From Mesonia sp. K7 (GTDB taxonomy: Bacteria; Bacteroidota; Bacteroidia; Flavobacteriales; Flavobacteriaceae): a stretch of 64,000 nt of DNA. Shown piece after piece: positions 2,018 through 3,850 of this stretch. Position 1 is the first letter of the stretch, and the number at the start of each line of letters is the position of its first letter. The notes under the pieces are model-generated. The model ran no database searches and was not told where the DNA came from. It was given only the letters and a program-made list of their open reading frames with translations. The translations under genes were made by a program, and so were the position numbers. The stretch is from contig NZ_QKQV01000008.1 of assembly GCF_003233725.1 (NCBI RefSeq), positions 47,384 to 111,383 of the forward strand, given 5' to 3'.

Positions 2018-2101
2018 TATCGTCTTATCAAGCGATTTTTAAAATTATCGTTTTTTAAGACGATATTTGTTTTTATCGTTTTTTTAAACGATATTTGAGT
2101 T
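2018..2101 (+). promoter_or_regulatory. three tandem 28-bp operator-like units before satD
   Basis: Three consecutive units begin at 2018, 2046 and 2074, spaced exactly 28 bp, and the last ends one base before the satD ATG. Units two and three each hold tatcgt, 8 bp, acgata (2046-2051/2060-2065 and 2074-2079/2088-2093). Unit one is degenerate (tatcgt 2018-2023, gcgatt 2032-2037). In units two and three the right arm merges into gatatttg (2062-2069, 2090-2097), close to a Bacteroidota -7 element. A bound protein would therefore block transcription or the start codon. The satD product carries a helix-turn-helix, so autoregulation is the natural inference. Confidence 0.75.
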
Positions 2102-2716
2102 ATGATTGGAGTGATTACAGGAGATATTATCAATTCGCGAGCGGCAAAACAACCTTCAGATTATCTAGAAGTGTTGCAAAGCCTTTTGCCCAAAATAAAT
2201 GCTCACCCTAAGAGCTGGGAGATTTATAGGGGTGATAGTTTTCAGGTAGAAATAGAGGATGTTGAAAACGCTTTTTGGTACTGTGTTTACCTCAAGAGTG
2301 CTATAAAATGCATTAAAAATATAGATGTACGCCTAGCAATTGGTTTAGGAAATAAAGATTTTGAAGCCAAAAGTGTTTCTAAATCCAGCGGAAGCGCTTT
2401 TATACGTTCCGGCGAAACTTTAGAGAACCTCAAAAAACAGAAAATACATTTGGGTATTGATACTGGAAAAAAAACTTTAGATCAAGAACTTAATGCTAGT
2501 ATTCAGTTGACACTTATCGCGATGAACCATTGGACCACTAATTCTGCTGAAATTATAAAACTCAGTATCGAAAATCCCGATAAAAGCCAGCAAGAACTAG
2601 GTGAACTTATTGGCATCAAACAAAACACCGTAAGTGAAAGACAGAAACGAGCTTTTTTAGATGAACTAAAAAATTTTAATTTAGTATTTCAGCAAAAAGT
2701 AAAACAACTCCAATAA
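2102..2716 (+). CDS. satD: SatD family protein: cyclase-like N-terminus plus C-terminal HTH
   Basis: A 204-residue member of the SatD family, named after a streptococcal acid-tolerance gene; the biochemical function is not known. Residues 1-13 (MIGVITGDIINSR), the RGDSF hairpin at 43-47, and the later VRLAIGLG and GSAFIRSGETLENL segments follow the order of a class III nucleotidyl cyclase palm domain, with Asp8 and Asp45 at the metal-ligand positions. The usual Asn/Arg catalytic pair is not evident, so activity is doubtful. Residues 161-184 form a helix-turn-helix (SQQELGELIG...NTVSERQKRA). Its stop is 1 nt from the next start, so the two genes are co-translated. It lies directly behind a triple operator. 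Confidence 0.8.
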   Translation: MIGVITGDIINSRAAKQPSDYLEVLQSLLPKINAHPKSWEIYRGDSFQVEIEDVENAFWYCVYLKSAIKCIKNIDVRLAIGLGNKDFEAKSVSKSSGSAFIRSGETLENLKKQKIHLGIDTGKKTLDQELNASIQLTLIAMNHWTTNSAEIIKLSIENPDKSQQELGELIGIKQNTVSERQKRAFLDELKNFNLVFQQKVKQLQ

Positions 2717-2717
2717 A

Positions 2718-3434
2718 ATGGAAATTCTCATCAAACTCATATTGGCACATCTCATTGGCGACTTCATTTTACAGCCGTATGCTTGGGTAAAAGAAAAAGA
2801 GAAGAAAAAACTAAAATCACCTAAACTTTATCTTCATGTTTTAATACATCTCGTTGTGACAGCTCTATTGCTTTGGGATTTGTCGCTTTGGCCAATTATT
2901 TTGATCATTACAGGTTCACACCTTGTTATCGATGCCATAAAAATTTCACTCAAAAAGAAAAAAAACAAGCGTTTACTTTTCTTTATCGATCAATTGCTGC
3001 ATTTGGCTGTTATTTTTTGGGTGAGTTACGCTTTCGCGGATTTGAATGTAGAAACTTCTTTTTTTGATACAAATAAAACACTGCTGGTCATTACTTCGGT
3101 TTTGTTTCTTACTTATCCAGTAGCAACCATGATGAAAGTCATTTTCTCAAAATGGAATGTCAAGCAAATTACGGAAGCCAATAACCAATCGTTAGAAAAT
3201 GCCGGTAAAATCATCGGAATGCTCGAAAGAGTTTTGGTTTTTATTTTTATTATCATGAACCATTGGGAAGCCGTTGGTTTTCTGATTACGGCAAAATCGG
3301 TCTTTCGATTTGGAGACTTAAAAGAAGCCAAGCAACGTAAACTCACCGAATATGTACTCATTGGGACACTTATAAGTTTTGGTGTTACTATACTTACGGC
3401 AATTGCTTGTCAACAATTTTTATATATTTTATAG
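2718..3434 (+). CDS. DUF3307 multi-pass membrane protein
   Basis: A 238-residue inner-membrane protein with five or six hydrophobic segments. The N-terminus (LILAHLIGDFILQPYAWV) and the GSHLVIDAIKI motif near residues 66-76 are the DUF3307 signature: conserved polar residues (HLxGDF.LQ, H..xD) inside membrane helices, as in proteins that bind metal or a small molecule in the bilayer. It starts 1 nt after satD and is probably translationally coupled to it. The SatD/DUF3307 pairing is, to my knowledge, recurrent in Bacteroidota. Function unknown; an effector or transporter controlled by SatD is inference. Confidence 0.8.
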   Translation: MEILIKLILAHLIGDFILQPYAWVKEKEKKKLKSPKLYLHVLIHLVVTALLLWDLSLWPIILIITGSHLVIDAIKISLKKKKNKRLLFFIDQLLHLAVIFWVSYAFADLNVETSFFDTNKTLLVITSVLFLTYPVATMMKVIFSKWNVKQITEANNQSLENAGKIIGMLERVLVFIFIIMNHWEAVGFLITAKSVFRFGDLKEAKQRKLTEYVLIGTLISFGVTILTAIACQQFLYIL

Positions 3435-3466: not shown

Positions 3467-3850
3467 ATGAAAAGCAAATACATCATACTTATAATCATTT
3501 TATTAGCCATAGGTTATTTAGGCTATCAGTACCTATATCAAGACCACAGAGATATAGCAGAAGAAGTCGCAGCATATAGTATTGCTTCAGATCAAGTAAA
3601 CCAAGAATTTGTGACAAATGCAGAAGTAGCAGAAACAAAATACCTCAACAAAACCATCGAAATAACAGGTACTGTTTCTAAAATAGAAGACAATTCGATT
3701 ACGCTAGATGATGTTATTTACTGCCAATTTACAGCGCCTCTAGAAACAGACATACAACAAAATCAAAATGTGACTATAAAAGGACGCTTTATTGGTTATG
3801 ACGATTTGTTAGAGTATGTCAATTTAGATCAATGTTCCATCAAAAATTAG
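3467..3850 (+). CDS. membrane-anchored OB-fold (tRNA_anti-like) protein
   Basis: A 127-residue protein with an N-terminal membrane anchor (residues 5-25), then a short helical segment and an OB-fold domain (about 58-127) with the pattern YLNKTIEITGTV...NVTIKGRF typical of the tRNA_anti-like OB family found in Bacteroidota. Despite the name, this family has no demonstrated tRNA role. It starts 33 nt after the DUF3307 gene and 3 nt before the DUF5777 gene, so it probably leads the redox/envelope group downstream. It may also be cotranscribed with satD, since no terminator was seen between them. Confidence 0.7.
   Translation: MKSKYIILIIILLAIGYLGYQYLYQDHRDIAEEVAAYSIASDQVNQEFVTNAEVAETKYLNKTIEITGTVSKIEDNSITLDDVIYCQFTAPLETDIQQNQNVTIKGRFIGYDDLLEYVNLDQCSIKN

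Follow-up and report, generated by a model that had tools for sequence, protein, structure and literature searches.

Lambda-type repressors, with their tripartite operators, and the controller proteins of restriction–modification systems are autoregulators that use several phased operators, and their specificity diverges between relatives. SatD differs from both in adding a predicted palm-fold domain and a DUF3307 gene partner. It is the product of a gene found here downstream of a phased palindrome array in the window, that is, in the whole 64,000-nucleotide stretch of DNA that was analysed.

Another comparable system is RptR, an autorepressor whose gene comes first in its operon; it has three tandem promoter sites over the −10 box and controls a phage-defence island (PMC12255303). 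Its sites are 6-bp TAGCTA palindromes arranged in 9-bp direct repeats, and they are reported to be highly conserved across homologues (PMC12255303). Set against the features given in that account, the satD locus is similar in that a predicted autorepressor is gene 1 of the predicted operon and three tandem sites lie over its own predicted promoter elements. Unlike the RptR sites, the SatD arrays consist of 20-bp palindromes at 28 or 29 bp, and their letters are strongly variable. The SatD array does not fit a repressor of the RptR type as it is portrayed there, since these palindromes and this period stand instead of the TAGCTA motif and the 9-bp repeat layout.

The Panoptes system combines mCpol (OptS) with 2TM-beta (OptE), in other words a stand-alone palm-fold nucleotide enzyme with a membrane protein (PMC12657218, PMC12657230). 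Judged by the outline given in those papers, satD–DUF3307 is likewise a two-gene pair of a predicted palm-fold protein and a membrane-like protein, and OptS occurs, weakly, in the Foldseek list of SatD (rank 50, E 0.07). Unlike Panoptes as outlined there, SatD carries a C-terminal helix-turn-helix (HTH) and a predicted self-read operator array, and its partner is DUF3307 rather than 2TM-beta. Neither SatD nor DUF3307 is mentioned in the main text of either paper. Identity with Panoptes was rejected on account of the DUF3307 partner and the lack of a match in PADLOC (2023 database).

The same gene name is borne by a streptococcal protein. Streptococcus SatD is reported to be essential in transposon screens, yet only 178 of 249 S. 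pyogenes genomes have it (PMC11323703), and SatD has been linked to acid stress tolerance in S. mutans, as cited in the same paper. The role in secretion and acid tolerance named for S. mutans reaches the SatD of the window by family name only. As far as that account describes it, this essential-yet-patchy pattern would fit a protein that keeps a harmful partner in check.

The palindrome array and the predicted satD–DUF3307 operon

Direct reading of the sequence between 2018 and 2101 reveals three palindromes of 20 bp. Their starts at 2018, 2046 and 2074 are exactly 28 bp apart, as the first-pass annotation of this DNA had claimed. The gap is 8 bp within each palindrome and again 8 bp between palindromes, and the direction of the half-site therefore flips every 14 bp. 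The features of the locus are as follows.

2018..2037, no strand: SatD-type palindrome 1, imperfect, TATCGTcttatcaaGCGATT (TATCGT-N8-GCGATT; 4/6 arm pairs complementary)
2046..2065, no strand: SatD-type palindrome 2, perfect arms, TATCGTtttttaagACGATA (TATCGT-N8-ACGATA; 6/6 arm pairs)
2062..2069, plus strand: −7-like element GATATTTG, overlapping palindrome 2 (7/8 to TAnnTTTG)
2074..2093, no strand: SatD-type palindrome 3, perfect arms, TATCGTttttttaaACGATA (TATCGT-N8-ACGATA; 6/6 arm pairs)
2090..2097, plus strand: −7-like element GATATTTG, which overlaps palindrome 3 and ends 4 nt short of the ATG
2102..2716, plus strand: satD, predicted palm-fold domain and C-terminal HTH (Pfam PF16264, 36.4 bits, cut-off 29; model pLDDT 97.1)
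2102..2521, plus strand: SatD N-terminal domain, modelled with a nucleotide-cyclase/GGDEF/Cas10-palm-like fold; Asp8 and Asp45 are invariant
2624..2638, plus strand: codons for residues 175–179 of the predicted recognition helix (Asn175, Thr176 and Glu179 co-vary with operator letters)
2718..3434, plus strand: gene of a DUF3307 multi-helix membrane-like protein, gene 2 of the predicted operon (Pfam PF11750, 100.9 bits, cut-off 23; model pLDDT 92.8)

A palindrome had been described in each unit. This holds for units 2 and 3, while unit 1 is imperfect, its degraded arm being the right one (GCGATT). The array had also been said to end one base before the ATG; it does adjoin the satD start, but unit 3 (2074–2101) abuts the ATG at 2102 directly, and palindrome 3 itself stops at 2093. 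The gatatttg elements noted in units two and three are present at the positions listed.

The array stands out within the window and within its genome. Both 0-mismatch matches of a pattern scan of the window fall in it, and half-site agreement over three units reaches 34 of 36 letters, compared with 28 at the next best non-overlapping site of the window and a best value of 28 in 30 Markov-simulated windows. In the genome of the window, the two-palindrome pattern (up to 3 mismatches) occurs solely at satD.

The profile scores of both gene products exceed the curated cut-offs, placing the first in the SatD family (PF16264) and the second in DUF3307 (PF11750). In the predicted SatD model, helices 163–170 and 174–183 form the HTH, in agreement with the one proposed in the first-pass annotation. 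The N-terminal domain has, on the predicted model, the fold of the nucleotidyl cyclase/GGDEF/Cas10-palm superfamily. Asp8 and Asp45, at strand 1 and the beta2–beta3 turn, are invariant in 76 of 76 SatDs; as candidate metal-binding residues, they are matched to the catalytic Asp by position, not by residue-level superposition. The GGDEF/GGEEF signature of diguanylate cyclases is absent from SatD, which has RGDSF at residues 43–47 instead.

The DUF3307 protein is all-helical in its predicted model, with invariant His/Asp residues, and a downstream DUF3307 match on the same strand accompanies satD in 143 of 143 loci. Taken as models, the predicted fusion of palm fold and HTH and its pairing with a membrane-like protein suggest a nucleotide-signalling or defence-like module. 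The array makes a testable regulatory circuit of this uncharacterised pair of proteins. Two further observations concern this part of the window. The DUF3307 protein (2718–3434) matches PHROG 2470 (E 3.3e-15), whose members are phage-encoded membrane proteins in the moron/host takeover class, and a small ORF with a tRNA_anti-like domain (PF12869) lies downstream of its gene on the same strand (3467–3850).

Fixed geometry, changing letters and the predicted SatD recognition helix

The satD gene is present in 34 of 60 near relatives (E 1e-3), in 137 of the 249 family genomes sampled (E 1e-8) and in 79 of 296 genomes sampled from the phylum (E 1e-10); Hyunsoonleella, Mangrovimonas, Parapedobacter and similar organisms hold relatives of the SatD of the window, and on this ground the phylum was taken to be Bacteroidota. 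A set of 202 distinct satD loci was assembled after 7 duplicates had been taken out; it leaves aside 17 of the 137 family matches, for the most part the remotest ones, and 9 of the 82 places from the phylum sample.

Several measures show that the array geometry is conserved over this set. The autocorrelation of the 170 bp upstream of satD in 143 loci is 0.475 at lag 28 and 0.412 at lag 56, against 0.321 in shuffled sequences, and no comparable peak occurs elsewhere between lags 8 and 61. Each locus was also shuffled once, and with an alternating half-site model 163 of 202 loci outscore every one of these 202 controls; of 202 further control stretches taken from inside genes, none exceeds the 99th percentile. 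The first-pass annotation had put forward, as a check, an alignment of such upstream regions in Flavobacteriaceae; over the present set, the phasing proved to be kept, and the letters vary by lineage.

The geometry was also left free in a scan (gap 4–12, period 22–36), in which 167 of 202 upstream regions lie above 22 bits, a threshold without a shuffled control of its own. The period found was 28 in 144 of them and 29 in 23, with no other value. The 35 regions below the threshold belong mostly to distant SatDs, and the distant homologues L200, L201 and L203–L208 have no array upstream of satD. In 19 of the 23 arrays of period 29, the best axis keeps an even gap inside TAT...ATA, with a linker of 9. 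Because this even gap is kept, the convergent TAT...ATA palindrome is the likely dimer site. The geometry TATNNN-N8-N'N'N'ATA with a period of 28 or 29 is conserved over the phylum; it is only this geometry that is conserved between lineages, and the inner triplet differs.

As many as 27 different inner triplets occur in 173 loci. TATCGT half-sites are found in most close relatives of the window, and elsewhere the half-sites are TATTCC, TATCAC, TATCTG, TATTAG, TATAAG, TATTAC, TATCGG, TATATG, TGTTAC, TATAGC, ATCAAC and others. On a quick tree of the SatD N-terminal domain, the triplet changes at least 69 times and residue 179 at least 45 times. Hybrid arrays with TATTCC and TATCAC units together lie upstream of satD in two loci (L018 and L060), and these are possible intermediates of an operator switch.

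The changing letters were compared with the protein by mutual information between SatD residues (columns with more than 20% gaps skipped) and eight operator positions. This comparison covered 173 of the 202 loci, those with a register score above 18, the other 29 being weak or without an array. The register gave TAT a bonus, so that conservation of the TAT prefix (distances 8–10) is partly by construction. All of the top five residue–base couplings fall on SatD residues 179, 176 and 175, which sit in the second HTH helix of the predicted model. At distance 7 from the axis, 49 of 51 loci with Glu179 have a C, and at distance 6, 48 of 50 loci with Gln179 have an A. A C (G opposite) at distance 5 accompanies Lys179 in 26 of 29 loci and Arg179 in 11 of 11 (37/40 together). 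Glutamate with cytosine, glutamine with adenine, and lysine or arginine with guanine are chemically ordinary pairings.

The relation was also examined by level of divergence. Among pairs of SatDs below 30% identity in the N-domain, the triplet is shared in 9 of 17 with the same residue triad versus 36 of 1517 with a different one. The corresponding counts are 20/29 versus 77/1920 at 30–40% identity, 190/352 versus 57/536 at 60–75%, and 81/116 versus 5/16 above 75%, pairs with too few shared positions being left out of this comparison. Among 65 representatives with less than 60% N-domain identity, Glu179 is accompanied by its C in 21 of 22 (7/43 without Glu179), Gln179 by its A in 11 of 13 (12/52 without Gln179) and Lys/Arg179 by its C in 14 of 17 (1/48 without Lys/Arg179). 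When the triplet was predicted from distant SatDs, those with the same triad were right in 41 of 63 cases; choosing the distant SatD with the closest N-domain was right in 6 of 63. By these comparisons, relatedness does not account for the match between triad and triplet. A phylogenetic independent-pairs test was too small for a significant outcome, as well-supported branches supplied three to four usable pairs. Over random pairings, a mean of 1.5, 1.0, 3.5 and 1.7 pairs went with the four rules and 0.0, 0.3, 0.0 and 0.0 against them, with no difference otherwise; for Gln179, some pairings were opposite to the rule.

Since the operator letters co-vary with residues of its predicted recognition helix, SatD is the predicted reader of the array, and it very probably reads the phased array upstream of its own gene. 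That the array is an operator for SatD itself was the proposal of the first-pass annotation, and the kept phasing and the letter covariation argue in its favour. A different protein, such as a global regulator or a nucleoid protein, might bind the array instead, with satD merely the gene downstream. Many regulators of the phylum are still uncharacterised, and TATCG doublets occur in viral contigs that hold no detectable SatD. Nevertheless, the triplet tracks residues of the predicted SatD recognition helix more strongly than the other residues of SatD that were compared, distant relatives included, and the doublet in the genome of the window is confined to satD, which makes such a binder very unlikely.

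The array is, therefore, phylum-wide and apparently self-read, with a fixed geometry and with letters that appear to co-evolve with their reader. This amounts to an amino-acid-to-base code in which three residues of the predicted recognition helix largely predict the operator letters across the phylum. The loci also form a natural set of specificity switches in which the DNA scaffold stays the same, which bears on how autoregulators can switch specificity without losing control.

Promoter elements and the proposed autorepression

Promoters of Bacteroidota carry TTTG or TAnnTTTG, with 4–5 nt from the −7 element to the transcription start, in the data presented in PMC6847099 and PMC9723704; in both, leaderless mRNAs are a minority. 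In the window, each of the two perfect palindromes is overlapped by a −7-like element, the promoter so marked is predicted rather than mapped, and both copies of GATATTTG are without the near-invariant first T of TAnnTTTG. The copy at 2090–2097 stands 4 nt before the ATG, so a leaderless satD mRNA is predicted if this element is used.

Similar elements recur at the other loci. TAHHTTTG is present in 105 of 202 satD upstream regions, compared with 23.6 after shuffling, and TTTG begins 0–2 nt past the right arm in 149 of 560 palindromes. Of the 202 loci, 33 have a NAHHTTTG that ends 3–6 nt ahead of the ATG, compared with a mean of 2.9 after shuffling (2–8 nt), and 16 have the strict form TAHHTTTG there (0.9 shuffled). 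The frequent coincidence of unit ends with −7-like elements gives a second possible reason for the 28-bp step, which can serve both the stacking of dimers and the repetition of promoter elements. In four loci (L156, L157, L162 and L165), TATATTTG lies beyond the array and ends 3–4 nt short of the ATG, and this position suggests a leaderless satD mRNA there.

The three palindromes are predicted SatD sites, and SatD likely represses satD–DUF3307 by covering the −7-like elements; the rough probability assigned to this reading is 0.85. Repression is the likely outcome because SatD on palindromes 2 and 3 would cover these elements, and the preference for repression over activation is drawn from position only. 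Mechanistically, SatD dimers would bind the palindromes, as the covariation between triplet and residues indicates, and three neighbouring dimers, perhaps cooperatively, would block the −7 element. More speculatively, the palm-fold domain may bind or make a nucleotide signal that relieves repression, controls the DUF3307 protein, or both. The sequence by itself gives strong support to binding by SatD. Beyond binding, we infer repression, cooperativity, the nucleotide signal and the phage link, with certainty decreasing in that order.

Activation by SatD, or a dual activator–repressor role like that of restriction–modification controller proteins, is unlikely. Several phased sites would fit distal activation combined with proximal repression, and the weaker site in the window is the distal one; against this, the two perfect sites bear the −7-like elements, and the last site lies 8 nt before the start codon, a usual position for repression. 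It is very improbable that the repeats act as RNA, with leader hairpins controlling transcription termination or translation. The stretch does fold well (−29.7 kcal/mol, z −7.1), as any palindrome array must, but a fixed period of 28/29 bp with varying N8 cores would not be expected of hairpins, nor would a half-site that recurs in both orientations or a covariation with protein residues. Moreover, the array would be untranscribed from the element at 2090–2097, if that element is used.

Paired sites in viral contigs and satD on plasmids

The exact TATCG doublet with a period of 28 was found in 119 stretches of viral contigs (L233–L351), which hold 83 distinct 48-mers. A period of 29 occurs in 22 stretches and a period of 30 in none of the viral contigs searched. 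The control doublet TATGC, in place of TATCG, gave 3 stretches, and doublets of other words under stricter patterns gave 4 (TATTCC) and 2 (TATCTG). In 50 of the 119 cases, the doublet adjoins an ORF with a RuvC-like motif, so that these 50 are in part one family; two of these ORFs match PHROG 159 (RuvC-like resolvase).

As to placement, 59 viral doublets lie between convergent genes, 19 between codirectional and 15 between divergent genes, and 8 lie within an ORF, one side being undefined for the remaining 18. A tRNA lies within 60 nt of 29 of the 119, and 26 are directly 5' of tRNA-Met. In 460 of 476 viral half-sites (related copies counted), the sixth base, which the pattern does not specify, is T or G, and host arrays of the Glu179 type have T or G there in 49 of 51, like the viral half-sites. 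Since the viral doublets share the 28/29 rule, the comparison suggests that the same protein family reads viral and host sites. A hairpin-type function of the viral doublets is possible as well. SatD is not encoded in any of the first 80 viral stretches, and a search of 41 whole viral records for SatD gave one weak HTH match (E 0.005).

One tentative and rather doubtful extension is that SatD–DUF3307 forms a phage-facing guard module, in which SatD would restrain its own operon and the DUF3307 protein, and the paired sites of phages would be decoys or bait that capture SatD. An arms race of this kind would drive the fast turnover of the operator letters and of the recognition helix. The idea draws on the period, sixth base and convergent placement of the viral doublets, and on the gene pair's occurrence on plasmids, in one case next to a gene annotated as Pycsar effector. 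The viral-contig sites offer a direct route to testing the idea of a nucleotide-signalling or defence-like module.

In genomes of the genus, two-palindrome SatD-type sites (2 mismatches) lie over two start codons (L229 at about 1952 and L228 at about 2131), one belonging to a terminase small subunit gene (PHROG 51) and the other to a short ORF that matches nothing in PHROGs. These sites may be due to chance, because 2 of 16 genomes also matched a reversed control pattern.

Plasmids also carry the gene pair. In the mobilizable E. coli plasmid pEC34A (NC_019077, 3.77 kb), a satD-like gene followed by DUF3307 (L224, 1792–3481) makes up the main non-plasmid genes, and six Klebsiella plasmid records hold a similar satD. 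On a plasmid of Sphingomonas insulae (L227, 3983–8434), satD–DUF3307 has neighbours annotated as Pycsar system effector and cyclase, and a TIR-domain gene is close by; by these annotations, the neighbourhood is defence-like.
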